DNA of 64,000 nt from NCBI RefSeq assembly GCF_901411515.1, contig NZ_CABDUX010000001.1:1798001-1862000 (forward strand). The letters run 5' to 3'. A program made the position numbers and the translations under genes. The notes under the pieces were generated by a model. That model was not told the DNA's origin. It worked only from the letters and a program-made list of their open reading frames with translations, and ran no database searches. Of this stretch, positions 7,895 to 16,764 are shown one piece after another. Each line of letters starts with the position of its first letter. Position 1 is the first letter of the stretch. The DNA comes from Raoultibacter phocaeensis. Its GTDB lineage: Bacteria > Actinomycetota > Coriobacteriia > Coriobacteriales > Eggerthellaceae.

Positions 7895-9076
7895 ATGGCG
7901 AAGATTCGGATATTCACCGGCAAAGGCGGTGTGGGCAAAACGAGCGTCGCGGCGGCGAGCGCCTGGAAGGCGGCAAAAGCGGGCGAACGTACGCTTCTTG
8001 TCAGCACCGATGCGGCGCATAGTGTGGGCGATGTGCTCGATCGGCGCATCGGCCCCGAAGCGGTACCGGTTGAGGAGAACCTCGAAGCGGTCGAGCTCGA
8101 CGCCGATCGCATCATGGAGTGCGAATACGGCGATTTGGTACGGGGCATTACCGCCATGATGGGCAGCATGGAGTTCGGCGGTGAGCCCGACGAGGCGCTT
8201 CCCTCGATGCCGGGCCTCGACGGGCTGTTCTCGCTGCTCAAGCTGCTCGATTATGCGGAAAGCGGCGCGTACGACACGATCGTGGTCGATTGCGCTCCGA
8301 CGGGCGAAACGCTTGCGCTGCTCAAGTTCCCCGAGCTCATGGGCTGGTACGTCGAGAAGTGGCTTCCGCTCGGCAAGGTGGCCATGCGGGTGCTTTCCCC
8401 GGTTTCGAAGAAAATCCTCAAGGTGGAGCTTCCCGACAAGCACGCCATGTCCGATATCGAGCGCCTCTACGCGCGCCTGCTCGATCTGCAGGAGCTTTTG
8501 AAAGACGGCGAGCGCACTTCGGTGCGCATCGTGGCGCTTCCCGAGAAGATGGTGGTGGAGGAAACCAAACGCAACTACCTGTATCTGAATCTGTTCGGCT
8601 ACCGCGTTGACGGCCTGATCGTGAACCGGGTGCTTCCCGCCGAGGCGGGCGAGGGGTTCTTCTCCGAATGGGCTTCGGTGCAGAAGCGCTGCATCGAAGA
8701 GCTATCCCGCGTGTTCGGCAATCTCCCCCAGGCGCAGCTGGCATGGCACGAAACCGACCTATGCGGCCTGCGCGATGTCGCTCGGCTTTCGGACGAACTG
8801 CCCGACGATGCGGTGTTTGCGGCCGCTTTGCAGGTCGAGCATGAACGCTACAGCAGAACCGATGCGGGATGGTGTTTGGAGCTGTTCGTGCCGCTTGCCG
8901 AGAAAGGTGGGATGGAGCTGTACCGCGCGGGAGCCGATCTGGTGGTGCGCATCGGCGCGTTCAACCGCTCGATTCCCTTGCCGAACGCTCTGGCTGGGTT
9001 GGACGTGGTGCGTGCGAAGCTCGACAACGGGGTGCTCGCCGTCGATTTTGCGAAGGAGGAATCTGATGAACGCTGA
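7895..9076 (+). CDS. ArsA/Get3-like ATPase with HSP20-like tail (copy 1)
   Basis: A 393-residue SIMIBI-class ATPase. The deviant P-loop GKGGVGKT is at the N-terminus, the switch I region is STDAAHSVGD, the switch II region is VVDCAPTGET. The last 80 residues (CLELFVPLAEKGGMELYRAG, IPLPNALAGLDV, LAVDFA) resemble the alpha-crystallin/HSP20-like domain found at the end of some ArsA homologues, including the Get3d type. No arsenite pump (ArsB/Acr3), ArsR or ArsD lies nearby, so arsenite export is not supported; client-protein or membrane-protein handling is a possibility. The next gene starts inside its 3' end. Confidence 0.85.
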   Translation: MAKIRIFTGKGGVGKTSVAAASAWKAAKAGERTLLVSTDAAHSVGDVLDRRIGPEAVPVEENLEAVELDADRIMECEYGDLVRGITAMMGSMEFGGEPDEALPSMPGLDGLFSLLKLLDYAESGAYDTIVVDCAPTGETLALLKFPELMGWYVEKWLPLGKVAMRVLSPVSKKILKVELPDKHAMSDIERLYARLLDLQELLKDGERTSVRIVALPEKMVVEETKRNYLYLNLFGYRVDGLIVNRVLPAEAGEGFFSEWASVQKRCIEELSRVFGNLPQAQLAWHETDLCGLRDVARLSDELPDDAVFAAALQVEHERYSRTDAGWCLELFVPLAEKGGMELYRAGADLVVRIGAFNRSIPLPNALAGLDVVRAKLDNGVLAVDFAKEESDER

Positions 9077-9386: not shown

Positions 9387-10559
9387 ATGAGAATCATCCT
9401 GTACACGGGCAAGGGCGGCGTCGGCAAGACGTGCGTTGCGGCGGCGACCGCGGTGCATCTGGCCGAACGGGGCCGCCGCGTGCTCGTTGCGAGCACCGAT
9501 ATAGCGCATAGCCTGGGCGATGCGTTTGACATCTCTCTGGGAAGCGAACCCGTGCATGTTGCCGAGAACCTCGATGCGCTCGAGATCGATCCGGTTATAG
9601 CGGGTCGCGCCGCGTGGGGGAGGATGCAAAAGTATCTGCGCGAGCTTATGACAACCCATGCGCAAGCCGGCATCGAGGCCGACGAGCTGCTGGTGTTCCC
9701 CGGCCTCGAAGAGCTGTTCGCCCTGCTCACCATATTGGACATCGAGGAAGCGGGCGTCTACGATGTGCTCATTGTCGACTGCGCTCCAACAGGCGAGACG
9801 CTTTCGCTGCTCAAATATCCCGAGCGTCTCGGCTCTTTCATCGAAACCGCGCTTCCCCTCAAACGCAAGGCGCTCAAAGTGGGCCGTCCCGTACTCGAGG
9901 GCATGATGAAGATACCGATGCCCGAAGACTCCCTGTTCGACGAAGCATCCGAACTCATCGGGCGGCTCGAGCGGCTGCGGGCACTTCTGATCGACGACGA
10001 CCGCGTGAGTCTGCGCATCGTCACGACTGCCGAGCGCATCGTCGTCAAGGAGGCGCGGCGTGCGTTTTCGTGGCTGCACCTCTACGGCTACAACGTGGAT
10101 GCTGTGATCGCGAACCGGCTCTATCCCGAAGAAGCCCTAGCCGGCTACTTCGAGCGGTGGACCGAGCTGCAGCGCTCGTCGCTTGACGAGATCGAAAGGG
10201 GATTCGACGGCGTACCCGTGCTTCGCCTCATGCTGCACCACGGCGAGCTTGTGGGGCTGGACGCGCTTTGCGAGGCGGCGGCTGAACTGTACGGCAGCGT
10301 CGATCCCGAAGCGGTGCTCGCGTGCTCCGATCCGCTTGTCCTGACCGAGCGCGACGGCGAATTCGAGCTTTCGTTCGCGGTGCCGTTCTTCGATAAGCGC
10401 GACCTCGACGTGCGCCACGATGGCGAGACCCTCATCGTGGCTCTGGCGAACCAGACGCGTCGCGTCCCGCTGCCCGAGAGCCTTCGTTCATGCGACGTGA
10501 CCGGAGCGCGCTACGAAGACGGCTCGCTTACGATTGCATTTGCGCGAGGCGGGCGATAG
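9387..10559 (+). CDS. ArsA/Get3-like ATPase with HSP20-like tail (copy 2)
   Basis: A 390-residue paralogue of the ATPase at 7895. P-loop GKGGVGKT, switch I-like STDIAHSLGD, switch II-like IVDCAPTGET. The C-terminal domain (FELSFAVPFFDKRDLDVRHD, RRVPLPESLRSCDV, LTIAFARGG) again has an HSP20-like pattern. The two copies are co-directional and close enough for one transcript, so a heterodimer or two-client system is conceivable; mycobacteria also encode a paired Get3/ArsA-like set. No CxxC zinc motif was obvious in either. Confidence 0.85.
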   Translation: MRIILYTGKGGVGKTCVAAATAVHLAERGRRVLVASTDIAHSLGDAFDISLGSEPVHVAENLDALEIDPVIAGRAAWGRMQKYLRELMTTHAQAGIEADELLVFPGLEELFALLTILDIEEAGVYDVLIVDCAPTGETLSLLKYPERLGSFIETALPLKRKALKVGRPVLEGMMKIPMPEDSLFDEASELIGRLERLRALLIDDDRVSLRIVTTAERIVVKEARRAFSWLHLYGYNVDAVIANRLYPEEALAGYFERWTELQRSSLDEIERGFDGVPVLRLMLHHGELVGLDALCEAAAELYGSVDPEAVLACSDPLVLTERDGEFELSFAVPFFDKRDLDVRHDGETLIVALANQTRRVPLPESLRSCDVTGARYEDGSLTIAFARGGR

Positions 10560-11272: not shown

Positions 11273-11300
11273 TTGCAAGAGTGCAGCGATGCGCTACAAT
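11273..11300 (+). promoter_or_regulatory. Promoter of the MATE leader RNA
   Basis: TTGCAA (11273-11278), 16-base spacer, TACAAT (11295-11300). Transcription should begin near 11307, almost 290 bases before the MATE start codon. Confidence 0.65.
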
Positions 11301-11301
11301 G

Positions 11302-11578
11302 GCCCTTGCGCGCTTTCGCAGGAAGCGCGGACGCGGCTTCAAGGGCTCGCGTGCACTCGAAAAGGAAGTGCCATGAAACTCTGCATCGGCTCTGCTCTGT
11401 GCGATAGGAAAACGATGAGACATCGCGCAGGGCTTACCGGATAGGCGAAAATCCTATCCGTTTCTCATCGGAACCGCTCGACGGCGCACGCGCCGCATTT
11501 GCGCATACATGAGTGCAAGGAGAACGGATCCGATGGTCGAACCTCGAAGCCGCAGGCGATATCTCGTCTGCGGCTTTT
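11302..11578 (+). ncRNA. Structured leader with pseudoknot and terminator: riboswitch candidate
   Basis: Consecutive perfect helices can be read. GCCCTTG (11302-11308) pairs with CAAGGGC (11340-11346), enclosing CGCGCTT/AAGCGCG (11309-11315/11323-11329). CTGTGCGAT (11397-11405) pairs with ATCGCGCAG (11422-11430, one G-U pair). The loop of that hairpin holds CGATGAGA (11413-11420), which is fully complementary to TCTCATCG (11463-11470), giving a pseudoknot around the hairpin CGGATAGG/CCTATCCG (11438-11445/11453-11460). The leader ends in an intrinsic terminator 17 bases before the MATE start. This is aptamer-plus-expression-platform architecture. It does not match the FMN, TPP, SAM, cobalamin, c-di-GMP, ZTP or fluoride consensus I know; guanidine-IV, which also precedes MATE genes, is not excluded. 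Confidence 0.65.
11547..11578 (+). terminator. Attenuator-type terminator before MATE
   Basis: AAGCCGCAG (11547-11555) pairs with CTGCGGCTT (11568-11576) and runs into a TTTT tract. It lies between the structured leader and the MATE ribosome binding site (GAGGAGAG), so read-through would decide expression. Confidence 0.8.
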
Positions 11579-11595
11579 ACTTTTCGAGGAGAGAC

Positions 11596-12945
11596 ATGAA
11601 ATCATCGGAACAGGATTTTACGAAGGGGTCGATCCCCCAACAGCTCGTCGCGTTCACACTGCCGCTTTTGGCGGCGAACATGTTGCAATACTGCTATCAG
11701 GCAGCCGATATGATCGTCGTCGGCCAGGTTATGGGAAACAACGGGCTTGTGGCCATCAGCAACGCGTCCATGATCTCGTTTTGCGTCGGGTCGCTTGCGA
11801 TCGGCATGACGGGCGGCGGCACGGTTGCGATCGCGCGGTGCAAGGGCTCGGGCGACACTGAGGGGCAGGGGGCGGTGTCGGCGGCGCTGTTCGCATTGTC
11901 GGCCGTATGCGCCCTTGCGGTTGCCGCGCTCGGCATCGGGTTTGCGCAACCGGTGTTCGAGGCGCTCAACGTGCCCGGCGCTTCGCTTTCCGAGGCGGTG
12001 GCGTACATGGCCATCGTGTGCGGGGGCGCCGTCTTCACGTTCGGCTACAATGCGGCGTGCTCGCTCATGAAAGGCCTCGGCGATGCGCGCGGGCCGCTTG
12101 CCTACATCGCCTTAGCAACCGTGGTGAATATCGCGCTCGATATCGTGCTCGTCGCCGGGTGCGGCTGGGGCGTGGCGGGTGCCGGGTGGGCGACTGTCAT
12201 CGCGCAAGGGTTCTCGTGCGTGCTCGCGATCGGGCATCTCGTGCGCCGCTATCCGCAGGCGCGCCCGCAGCTTGCCGATCGCGCGGCGGTGCGCCGCAGT
12301 GCGGCGGCTATCCTCCGCGTCGGCATACCTTCGGCGTCGCAGATGGTCGTGGTGAACCTATCCTATCTGTTGGTGACCGGCATGCTCAACGGGTTCGGTG
12401 CCGATGTGGCCACCGCTTCGGGGGTGGGACTCAAGATCAGCACGTTCTCGGGACTTCCCTGTTGGGCGATCGGGCAGGCGGTCACGGCGATGACCAGTCA
12501 GAACGCCGGTGCACGCAAGCCCGAACGCATGCGATCGGTCGTCCGTTCGAGTGCGGCGATGTCGGTGGCGGTGATCGGCGTAATAGCCGTCGCGACGCAG
12601 GTCTTCGCCTACGATCTCGCTTTCACGTTCGGGGCTACGGGCGAGGCGGCGATCGAGACAACGGTGCTCTACCTGCGCATTACCTGCTCGTTCAACGCGG
12701 CGTTCTATGCGCTCATGTACTGCTTCGATTCGTTCGCCCTCGGTTCGGGCGCGCCTCGGCTTGCGCTTGTGAACGCGTTTTTCGATGCGGTGGCAATCAG
12801 GTTCGGGCTCGCGTGGCTGCTCGGCTCCGTGCTCGGATTCGGGTTTACCGGCATCTACGTCGCTCAAGCGCTCTCACCGGTGATCCCCGCGCTCATCGGG
12901 CTTGCGTACTACCTGCGCGGCGCCTGGGCGAAGCGGCTGGAATAG
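11596..12945 (+). CDS. MATE-family efflux transporter
   Basis: A 449-residue, roughly 12-helix multidrug and toxin extrusion protein, starting at ATG 11596 after GAGGAGAG. The N-terminus (FTKGSIPQQLVAFTLPLLAA, NMLQYCYQAADMIVVGQVMG) is characteristic of the MATE fold, and an internal repeat begins near residue 235 (RVGIPSASQMVVVNLSYLLV). An in-frame extension to 11509 would cross the terminator hairpin and is rejected. It exports cationic or aromatic compounds by Na+ or H+ antiport; the ligand sensed by the leader RNA may be the substrate. Confidence 0.92.
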   Translation: MKSSEQDFTKGSIPQQLVAFTLPLLAANMLQYCYQAADMIVVGQVMGNNGLVAISNASMISFCVGSLAIGMTGGGTVAIARCKGSGDTEGQGAVSAALFALSAVCALAVAALGIGFAQPVFEALNVPGASLSEAVAYMAIVCGGAVFTFGYNAACSLMKGLGDARGPLAYIALATVVNIALDIVLVAGCGWGVAGAGWATVIAQGFSCVLAIGHLVRRYPQARPQLADRAAVRRSAAAILRVGIPSASQMVVVNLSYLLVTGMLNGFGADVATASGVGLKISTFSGLPCWAIGQAVTAMTSQNAGARKPERMRSVVRSSAAMSVAVIGVIAVATQVFAYDLAFTFGATGEAAIETTVLYLRITCSFNAAFYALMYCFDSFALGSGAPRLALVNAFFDAVAIRFGLAWLLGSVLGFGFTGIYVAQALSPVIPALIGLAYYLRGAWAKRLE

Positions 12946-13015: not shown

Positions 13016-13300
13016 ATGGAATCGATCCTTACTGTTCGATTGGAGAACGAGGTGAAAGAACAGGGCGTTGCCGTAATGAGGCGCTGCGGCTTCACGCCTT
13101 CGGAAGCGGTTCGCCGTTTGTTCGATTATGCCGTGAAGAACGATTCGCTCCCTTTCGAGCAGCATGAGCGTCCTTCGAAAGACGAGATAAGGCGGCGCAT
13201 TGCAGCGTTTGACGCATGCCACACCAAAAAGCCAAGCGGTATGTCCGATGAAGAAATCCGCGAGGAGCGGCTGAAGGAGCGCTATGGAACTGGTGCTTGA
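13016..13300 (+). CDS. RelB/DinJ-family antitoxin
   Basis: A 94-residue antitoxin with an N-terminal ribbon-helix-helix (LTVRLENEVKEQGVAVMRRC then TPSEAVRRLFDYAVKN) that would dimerise on the operator at 12984-13003. The C-terminal part (PSKDEIRRRIAAFDACHTKK) is acidic/basic and likely wraps the toxin. Two adjacent ATGs exist (13013 and 13016); AAAGGA favours the second. Its 3' end overlaps the toxin start by 17 bases. Confidence 0.85.
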   Translation: MESILTVRLENEVKEQGVAVMRRCGFTPSEAVRRLFDYAVKNDSLPFEQHERPSKDEIRRRIAAFDACHTKKPSGMSDEEIREERLKERYGTGA

Positions 13301-13727
13301 TACCAACATCGTACTCGATCATATCGATCGGCGCGAACCGTTTTACGAGCTTTCGCGTAAAGTGTGCTTGTTGGGGATCGTCGAAGCAGCCAACACGTAT
13401 ATCAGCGTGAACATGCTCACGGATTTGTACTATCTGCTTTGCAAGGATTTCGGAAGCCAGGGCGCTCAGGATATGATCGAGAACAACCTGTCGTTTCTTC
13501 GCTTGGTGGGCATCACGCCGGAAGACGCGCGCAAGGCACTCGCCGCGCGTTGGGGTGATTTTGAAGACTGCCTCGTTGCGCGATGCGCAGAGAAGATCGG
13601 TGCCGACTACATCGTTACGCGCAATGCGAAGGATTTCACCGCCTCGTCTGTCGAGGCGGTGACTCCCGAAGAGCTGTTTGCGCGCCTTGAGGCGCAGGGA
13701 TTCGTGTACGAGGAAATCGACTGGTAG
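13284..13727 (+). CDS. PIN-domain toxin (VapC-like)
   Basis: A 147-residue PIN ribonuclease. Metal-binding acidic residues are visible in LVLDTNIVLD near the N-terminus, in GDFEDCLVARCAEKIGADYI and in the following TRNAKDF. The pairing of a RelB/DinJ-type antitoxin with a PIN toxin is a known hybrid arrangement. Expected activity is cleavage of tRNA or rRNA when released from the antitoxin. Confidence 0.88.
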   Translation: MELVLDTNIVLDHIDRREPFYELSRKVCLLGIVEAANTYISVNMLTDLYYLLCKDFGSQGAQDMIENNLSFLRLVGITPEDARKALAARWGDFEDCLVARCAEKIGADYIVTRNAKDFTASSVEAVTPEELFARLEAQGFVYEEIDW

Positions 13728-14741: not shown

Positions 14742-15668
14742 TTACAGCGTGCTCCCGTCGAGATTGCGCGCGCTCTTCTGCTCGCAAAGCAGCATCCGTT
14801 GGCCGATCGAGTCTTCGAGCCGATGGGCTACGAGATTCGCCATTGCCGAGCCGTCGCGTCCATCGATGTCGCGTACGAACGAATCGATGGCACCGTAGTA
14901 CGCGCCGATGCCCGCTTTGTCGGCTTTGAGACTGATCGGCGGGTATCCTGCTTTCATCAGTTGGAAGTTGAGCACTATGCGCCCCGTTCTCCCGTTCCCG
15001 TCTTGAAAGGGGTGGATATCTTCAAACGCGAGGTGAAACAGTGCAGCGGTTTCGATGGCTGAACACTCGGTGCGATTCGCCCATGCAACCGATGCGTCTA
15101 CGAGTTCGGGAACCCGTGCTGGGGGTGGGGGAAGAATCGGCGAAGAAGAAATGTAGCGTTGATCCCAGCGGTATTCACCCGGTTCGCAGTCTTCGAGGTG
15201 TGCCGCTGCGATTCGATGAAGAACGCATATCGTTGCAGCGGAAAGCGGTTTTTCCTCACGTACGAATTGGACCATCGTATCGAAGGCTGCAGCGATATCG
15301 ATGATTTCGAGGTGTTCGCTGAGGGATTTCCCCGGTATGGTTGCATCCTCTTCGAGAATTAATCCAGTTTCTTTGAGCGAAAGAGTATTGCCCTCGATGC
15401 GGGCGGTGGTGTGTACGAAATCGATCTTTACCGATTCGAAAATGCGGTCTTCATTGGTCGGCTCGAAACCATGATCGGCAAGGATCGCCCTTTGATCCTC
15501 GAGCCGTGCGACGAGCTTTCTGTCCGTGGCAAAAGCGCGTGGTTCGCTGTTGAAACGCTGCAACTGCTTTTGCAGCAAGCATAGATACTCGTAGCGCTCA
15601 TCGGTGACGCCGTACATCTTCTCGTAGCCGGTGGCGTACTCGAGTCCGCTCATGTCTTGTTCCGCCAT
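14742..15668 (-). CDS. Fic-family AMP-transferase, class II
   Basis: A 308-residue Fic protein. The catalytic motif HPFQDGNGRTGR is intact and an N-terminal inhibitory motif of the [S/T]xxxE[G/N] type is present in TTARIEGN, making it a class II, self-inhibited enzyme. It should transfer AMP (or another phosphate-containing group) to a target hydroxyl; the target is unknown. The open frame runs on to 16241, but AAAGGATG and the start of family homology support ATG 15668. Convergent with the HHH gene. Confidence 0.9.
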   Translation of the reverse strand: MAEQDMSGLEYATGYEKMYGVTDERYEYLCLLQKQLQRFNSEPRAFATDRKLVARLEDQRAILADHGFEPTNEDRIFESVKIDFVHTTARIEGNTLSLKETGLILEEDATIPGKSLSEHLEIIDIAAAFDTMVQFVREEKPLSAATICVLHRIAAAHLEDCEPGEYRWDQRYISSSPILPPPPARVPELVDASVAWANRTECSAIETAALFHLAFEDIHPFQDGNGRTGRIVLNFQLMKAGYPPISLKADKAGIGAYYGAIDSFVRDIDGRDGSAMANLVAHRLEDSIGQRMLLCEQKSARNLDGSTL

Positions 15669-15812
15669 GCGGCATCCTTTCGCGTTCGTACAGGGTTTCC
15701 GTACCAGCCTATGATAAAGCGTTGCGAGACTGTTCTGCAATACGGTTACCGGGCGGAGCGATGAGCGCCCTTTGAAGTAGGGCCAGCCGATGAGAGGCGT
15801 TAAACCCGATTT

Positions 15813-15850
15813 CGACTCGGCGCGATGCGGCGCGGTATCGCGCCGAGTCG
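15813..15850. terminator. Perfect 14-bp hairpin between nrdG and the Fic gene
   Basis: CGACTCGGCGCGAT (15813-15826) and ATCGCGCCGAGTCG (15837-15850) are perfect inverted arms around a 10-base loop. It lies after the nrdG stop on the minus strand. There is no T-tract, so it may act as a factor-dependent terminator or transcript stabiliser. Confidence 0.5.
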
Positions 15851-15885
15851 ATCTCAAGAGTTCGATCGAAACCTTCGCCGCATGC

Positions 15886-16764
15886 CTACACACCGCGTAT
15901 ACGGGCGGTGGGAACGATGGGGCGCACAGCTGCCACCAGGGCTTCCAACTCATCGGGTGCGTATCCGCTGAGCGATCCCTCACCTGCGAGTACGGTGTCC
16001 GAATCGACGAATGCTTGGAGGTACCACGCATCGGCCCCCTTGATCCACCGCGCGAGGTCCGTGAGGCCCATCTCGTCGTGGTACTCGCGCACGATGGTCG
16101 TGCGGAACTCGTAGGGGACCGCGCCCGAAAGCAGGTATGCGACGCTCGCTTCCACAGAAGAGAGATCGAACGCAGGCACACCGATCGTCTCGGCATACCG
16201 CGCGGGGCTGTTCTTGGCGTCCATCGCAACGTAATCCACAAGCCCGTCGTCTACGAGTGCGCGCAGGCGGTCGGGTAAGCTGCCGTTCGTGTCGAGCTTG
16301 ACGGCGAAACCCCGCCGTTTGATTTCGGCGCAGAACGCTTCGATGTCGGGTTGCAGAAGCGGTTCGCCGCCCGTTATGCAGATGCCGTCGAGGAGTCCCT
16401 GGCGCTTGTCGAGAAACGAAAAGAACTCCTCTTCGGAAACGGTGGGGAAGGGCTGTTTGGAAAGGTGCGACTCAGAGGTGCTGCCCGCGCATTCGGCGCC
16501 CGCGTTGCGCTCGTCATCCTCAGGGCACTGCGCGTCCGCGCCGCGCCCCTCATCCGCACCGCGCTGTGCGTTCGCGCCGTACGGCGTTTCCTCATTGTTC
16601 CCGCCTTCGCTCTCGTCGCTACCGGCGGCAGGTGCTGCTCCCTGCACCAATTCGGCGTTGTGGCAGAACGGGCAGCGGAAATTGCATCCGGGCGTGAACA
16701 CCGTTGCGGCGGTCTTTCCTGGATAGTCGAGCAACGTGAGTTTTTGAAGGCCTGCGAGTCTCAT
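15886..16764 (-). CDS. nrdG: Anaerobic ribonucleotide reductase activating protein (radical SAM)
   Basis: A 292-residue radical SAM enzyme. CNFRCPFC supplies the CxxxCxxC ligands of the 4Fe-4S cluster, GGEPLL is the SAM-binding GGE motif, and the N-terminus (GLQKLTLLDYPGKTAATVFT) matches the NrdG2-type activases. It should generate the glycyl radical on NrdD (gene at 22327). Odd feature: roughly residues 40-100 are a low-complexity acidic, Gly/Ala/Asn-rich insertion just after the cluster motif. No Shine-Dalgarno sequence; a TACAAT box (16780-16775, minus strand) lies 10 bases before the ATG, suggesting a nearly leaderless mRNA. Confidence 0.87.
   Translation of the reverse strand: MRLAGLQKLTLLDYPGKTAATVFTPGCNFRCPFCHNAELVQGAAPAAGSDESEGGNNEETPYGANAQRGADEGRGADAQCPEDDERNAGAECAGSTSESHLSKQPFPTVSEEEFFSFLDKRQGLLDGICITGGEPLLQPDIEAFCAEIKRRGFAVKLDTNGSLPDRLRALVDDGLVDYVAMDAKNSPARYAETIGVPAFDLSSVEASVAYLLSGAVPYEFRTTIVREYHDEMGLTDLARWIKGADAWYLQAFVDSDTVLAGEGSLSGYAPDELEALVAAVRPIVPTARIRGV

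Follow-up and report, generated by a model that had tools for sequence, protein, structure and literature searches.

The leader analysed here lies within a 64,000-nucleotide stretch of the Raoultibacter phocaeensis genome (the window) and precedes a gene for a MATE family efflux transporter. Upstream of the leader are two adjacent ArsA/GET3-type ATPase genes (7895-9076 and 9387-10559, + strand), the latter additionally bearing an ArsA HSP20-like domain, and a similar coding region adjoins the MATE locus of the sister genome, G001. Just 3' of the MATE gene, a small antitoxin-like ORF and, after it, the gene of a PIN-domain protein (PF13470) probably form a toxin-antitoxin pair (13017-13727, + strand). 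A long ORF at 14742-16241 (- strand) has a Fic-like motif in its translation (HPFQDGNGRTGR). The MATE reading frame also has an ATG at 11509 and stays open from there through the terminator (11509-11595, + strand), so gene finders could misplace the MATE start. The leader and its gene comprise the following features:

11273-11300 (+), sigma-70-like promoter TTGCAA-16-TACAAT, from a consensus scan
11363-11369 (+), Shine-Dalgarno site of the upstream ORF (uORF), AGGAAG region, read and scored
11373-11444 (+), uORF of 23 codons encoding the leader peptide MKLCIGSALCDRKTMRHRAGLTG and ending in a stop codon; runs through P1
11394-11433 (+), P1 hairpin of 12 bp (11394-11405/11422-11433, two G-U pairs), with covariation and a uup-like core
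11413-11420 (+), loop strand of the pseudoknot, CGAUGAGA, from complementarity, a shuffle test and covariation
11417-11435 (+), 5' strand of the predicted antiterminator, with partners in the terminator 5' arm and loop
11438-11460 (+), P2 hairpin of 8 bp (11438-11445/11453-11460), read and folded; contains the uORF stop (11442-11444)
11463-11475 (+), X strand, predicted to pair with the loop (OFF) or with Y (ON)
11526-11535 (+), Y, partner of X, from a complementarity test
11542-11589 (+), outer helix CCUCGA/UCGAGG enclosing the terminator, able to hide the MATE Shine-Dalgarno site
11546-11577 (+), intrinsic terminator (attenuator) with a U-rich tail, from a consensus scan
11596-12945 (+), MATE family efflux transporter, the regulated gene (PF01554, E-value of 1.7e-36; TIGR00797, 175 bits, over cutoff)

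The original prediction had bounded the leader by a promoter and a terminator, and consensus scans found both. From the promoter position, transcription is expected to start near 11307. Homologous leaders have the same promoter arrangement 5' of them (TTGAC...TATGCT/TATAAT), and most end in terminators of a similar kind. The leader folds at -133.6 kcal/mol (z = -5.15), a stability that none of 200 shuffled sequences reached. The stem first described as 9 bp (11397-11405/11422-11430) is real and longer than claimed, as listed above. Likewise, the complementarity that had been noticed between eight loop bases and a strand downstream, enclosing an 8-bp hairpin, proved to be perfect: the loop strand pairs over 8 bp with 11463-11470 (UCUCAUCG), better than with shuffled downstream sequence (z = -3.8, p = 0.005).

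A comparison with Rfam returned no riboswitch match in the leader at the gathering threshold. Guanidine-IV RNAs (mepA motif) occur 5' of MATE genes and end in a terminator. The leader resembles them in both respects and had no Rfam match to them up to an E-value of 10. In a relaxed search, the best match was to a known motif, uup RNA (RF03060), at 28.3 bits against a gathering cutoff of 36.8 (E-value of 0.0017, 451 nt). This match covers 11385-11433 and all model positions 1-48, and it is the sole one at an E-value of up to 1 in the 3.86-Mb genome. Of 138 Eggerthellaceae genomes searched, 16 had a sub-cutoff uup match, immediately 5' of a MATE gene in at least 14 cases; none of the 138 contained an over-cutoff uup RNA, and G001 had no RF03060 match at an E-value of up to 1. 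The 48-nt Rfam model includes no uORF, pseudoknot, antiterminator or terminator. uup RNA has been described as being of unknown function, with no further evidence of riboswitch action, and as associated with Uup-type ATPases, whose biochemical function is itself called unknown (PMC11477304).

We gathered uup RNAs by a contig pattern scan and model searches, from Lachnospiraceae, other Clostridia, Bacilli, Aeromonas and Chromobacterium; all but one of the first 12 scored over the Rfam cutoff. A BLAST search of the 48-nt consensus against plasmids returned one Aeromonas record, without annotation. Like these RNAs, the window has a full-length P1 with the conserved loop CGAUGA(A)GCAU (12 bp, loop ACGAUGAGACAU), followed by X and a terminator. 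It differs in its core, CGAUGAGACAU, and in its score. The gene downstream in the window encodes a MATE transporter and not a Uup/ABC-F ATPase, a context shared with ten over-cutoff uup RNAs found 5' of MATE genes in Bacillota. Leaders of the orthologous MATE genes in Gordonibacter and Enteroscipio contain the exact uup core CGATGAAGCATCGCACGGAGC and link the window, through a shared core, X, terminator and target gene, to over-cutoff uup RNAs whose downstream MATE genes are related (43-46% identity). On this chain of sequence similarity, we regard the leader as a divergent relative of uup RNA and, because it scores below Rfam's own threshold, not as a formal member.

The element recurs 5' of MATE orthologues across Eggerthellaceae. 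Genes 3' of 62 loci comprised 25 MATE transporters, 25 ABC-F proteins, four Mef-like MFS transporters and five class I SAM methyltransferases; three contigs ended too early. In Bacillota, over-cutoff uup RNAs stand before MATE, ABC-F and Mef-like MFS genes, and in Gammaproteobacteria before ABC-F or methyltransferase genes. The four MFS proteins strongly resemble Mef macrolide exporters, with scores under the corresponding cutoffs. The best model for the ABC-F proteins, which are cut short at the locus ends, was NF000355 (ribosomal-protection-like), also below cutoff. This gene content suggests that the targets have protection against ribosome-acting compounds in common. In five Aeromonas and Chromobacterium loci (L085, L087, L126, L127 and L128), an over-cutoff uup RNA is followed by an uncharacterised Methyltransf_11 class I SAM methyltransferase gene, possibly an unrecognised resistance gene.

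The original prediction had proposed asking homologues whether the stems covary, and P1 and the pseudoknot do. Both sides changed in 14 of their 18 pairs, a result reached by none of 500 shuffles, although many of the compared sequences are closely related and such counts overstate independent events. Standard pairs filled 91% of cells across 49 distinct sequences, a percentage biased upward because the X strand was picked as the best partner within range; slid controls leave this bias in place. The covariation signal was lost when the partners were slid. These pairing tests used anchored segments. The pseudoknot on its own showed both-side changes in five of seven pairs, for example from CCGAUGA/UCAUCGG to CCGGUGA/UCACCGG. 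It is weak in G001 (p = 0.375) and merely 5 bp long in one Eggerthellaceae subgroup. Two sub-cutoff uup-like leaders (L119 and L090) have loops without CGAUGA and retain the uORF, and L119 also retains the antiterminator pairing, which suggests that the loop and pseudoknot can degenerate.

P1 lies inside the uORF. A Shine-Dalgarno site and start codon open into P1 in 51 of 60 non-redundant loci, where dinucleotide shuffles would give 17.1, and the distance from start to P1 recurs (41 nt in 21 loci, 22 nt in nine). In the window, codons 1-10 read ATG AAA CTC TGC ATC GGC TCT GCT CTG TGC. Four of these differ in G001, three of them synonymously (AAG, CTT, ATT), so that the peptide begins MKLCIGSALC in the window and MKLCIGRALC in G001. 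Across 22 leaders of Eggerthellaceae MATE orthologues the uORF opens with M[K/I]LC, or with MRPLC in L038, and several Eggerthellaceae uORFs extend fully through P1 and X (MKLCRAAAPRVIADEASHGAGTDIVIGIGRRAA). Differences in Eggerthellaceae uORF codons 2-5 are biased towards the third position (0, 52 and 119 at positions 1, 2 and 3). The corresponding counts in Aeromonas and Chromobacterium are 16, 4 and 25, and LYASDQRVTR is retained in both with mostly synonymous changes.

No shared stalling motif is evident among the leader peptides, which are not conserved between clades. The conserved uup 5' flank, GaAAACUuAG, encodes (R)KLS in peptides such as MMNTQHRIYIRKLSSVQMYTMKHCAELNQEA. An earlier reading of this flank (GAAAACUUAG) as a tripeptide, MKT-stop, was dropped, as in real uup RNAs it encodes (R)KLS within a longer uORF. 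Clades differ in the frame in which the loop is read (TMKHC.E versus ADEASHGA) and certain uORFs end directly after the P1 5' arm, which indicates that downstream of this arm the RNA is conserved. A conserved peptide was discarded as the cause of loop conservation for the same reasons.

Alternative partners exist for the stem and for the pseudoknot strand. X is complementary to Y in the window (11466-11472/11529-11535; -22.6, p = 0.015), and this complementarity reaches p ≤ 0.05 in most loci, with z about -7 in L077 and L080. The P1 3' arm and loop are complementary to the terminator 5' arm and loop. In the window, this predicted antiterminator has 14 pairs between 11417-11435 and 11547-11565, in three helices (11417-11420/11562-11565, 11422-11426/11556-11560 and 11431-11435/11547-11551). 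Real segments gave more antiterminator than the shuffled mean in 51 of 56 leaders and no more than shuffles in L007, L090, L102 and L127; the excess in the window is modest, as three of 25 shuffles reached it.

A stalled ribosome was mimicked by holding 11358-11407 single-stranded, with the polymerase placed just before the terminator 3' arm. In the free window transcript, the computed probability was 0.99 for P1 and 0.00 for the antiterminator. Under the mask, the antiterminator rose to 0.95 and partial terminator pairing was gone; a control mask at 11480-11525 had no effect on the window transcript. Masking the P1 5' arm raised the antiterminator in 54 of 56 leaders and lowered it in none. 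As computed, the anti-antiterminator, the antiterminator and the intrinsic terminator of the leader exclude one another, with P1 as the anti-antiterminator in the model proposed below. RNAfold does not model pseudoknots, and X/Y pairing appears in both states. The full-length equilibrium fold is the terminator, even with P1 masked, so the switch must be kinetic, like other attenuators. The outer helix, which is also present in the sister genome and was seen in this genus only, has a pairing probability of 0.23 in the free transcript and 0.96 with the P1 5' arm masked, and the direction of its effect is ambiguous. It is possibly a second, translational layer of control.

Our preferred reading of the leader, which we consider probable, is a translation-coupled transcription attenuator that works by ribosome stalling and is a divergent member of the uup RNA lineage. 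From the elements described above, we infer the following stalling, switching and inducer. Ribosomes running freely along the uORF would let P1 re-form behind them and its loop pair with X in the pseudoknot, whereupon the terminator would form and transcription would end before the MATE gene. A ribosome held at roughly uORF codons 4-10 would cover the P1 5' arm, and the P1 3' arm and loop would then pair with the terminator 5' arm, X would pair with Y, and the polymerase would continue into the MATE gene. The signal is likely translation inhibition by a ribosome-targeting compound, as this fits the genes that follow the element elsewhere, and it would induce the MATE exporter.

The same RNA could also be read as a true metabolite or drug riboswitch, in which the pseudoknot of P1, loop and X is an aptamer that, on binding the exported compound, releases or blocks the terminator with no ribosome involved. 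A compact covarying pseudoknot, a terminator and an exporter downstream would fit this, and uup RNA entered the literature as a candidate cis-regulatory motif and is discussed beside riboswitches (PMC11477304). We nevertheless judge it unlikely. The uORF recurs with its Shine-Dalgarno site and codon-like substitution, loop and spacer lengths vary, and the pseudoknot and antiterminator pairings mostly explain the conserved loop, so that little of the conserved sequence stays unpaired to form a ligand pocket. Moreover, what the ABC-F ribosome protection, Mef-like, MATE and methyltransferase targets share is ribosome-targeting drugs, not one metabolite. The structured, pseudoknotted, terminator-ending cis-regulatory leader of the original prediction stands, while its new riboswitch sensing the exported compound finds no support, given the RF03060 match, the position of P1 inside a translated-looking uORF and the pairings of the loop. 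That first reading had overlooked the short Shine-Dalgarno-led uORF through the stem and the alternative pairings of the stem and pseudoknot strand.

Two further explanations keep the uORF. A translation-coupled attenuator unrelated by descent might resemble uup RNA through convergence on short hairpins, as the sub-cutoff score of the window and the missing match in G001 would allow. The exact core in the orthologous Gordonibacter and Enteroscipio leaders, bridging to over-cutoff uup RNAs, and the similar terminators and X sites make this very improbable. Leader peptide, competing hairpins and terminator are also the architecture of biosynthetic attenuators of the trp/his type, where ribosomes await charged tRNA on the uORF. 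Amino-acid starvation is, however, a very unlikely signal here: the uORFs have no run of a single amino acid, their peptides vary by clade, and none of the 59 classified loci has a biosynthesis or amino-acid transport gene downstream.

If ribosome-stalling attenuation holds, uup RNA, an orphan candidate, would gain a concrete mechanism, namely leader-peptide attenuation with a pseudoknot, and its targets a common denominator in defence against ribosome-targeting compounds. The comparison further suggests that translation stress induces MATE exporters, among them those of gut Eggerthellaceae. More tentatively, uup RNA might be a portable sensor of ribosome speed in which the RNA, not the peptide, is the conserved part. 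The pseudoknot itself may then set the timing or slow the ribosome, because the peptides vary from clade to clade while the nucleotides of the loop and P1 persist under two different reading frames. One such cassette could perhaps serve unrelated resistance-type genes (ABC-F, several MATE lineages, Mef-like MFS and methyltransferase) and has possibly spread across Actinomycetota, Bacillota and Pseudomonadota. A partial literature search found no prior proposal of a uORF or attenuation for uup RNA, which does not prove priority.

Like the leaders of vmlR, cplR and msrD, the window has a uORF with a Shine-Dalgarno site that reaches the anti-antiterminator. The closest layout is that of vmlR in Bacillus subtilis, for which an anti-antiterminator/antiterminator model was proposed (PMC9226507). 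Both have a uORF within the anti-antiterminator hairpin, an antiterminator, an intrinsic terminator and a layer sequestering the Shine-Dalgarno sequence. Unlike the window, vmlR has a three-codon uORF (MIN), an ABC-F target, known inducers and no mention of a pseudoknot (PMC9226507). In Clostridioides difficile, stalling on the cplR uORF induces a resistance gene restrained by a terminator hairpin, as we propose here, but the uORF has three codons (MRI), the hairpin lies directly over it and the target is again ABC-F (PMC10201436). The RNA of mefA/msrD is unrelated, and its short peptide MsrDL (MYLIFM) stalls at the stop codon (PMC10314930). Still, this system is a macrolide-responsive leader-peptide attenuator of an efflux gene together with an ABC-F gene, and genes of both kinds, Mef-like and ABC-F, occur 3' of uup RNAs too.
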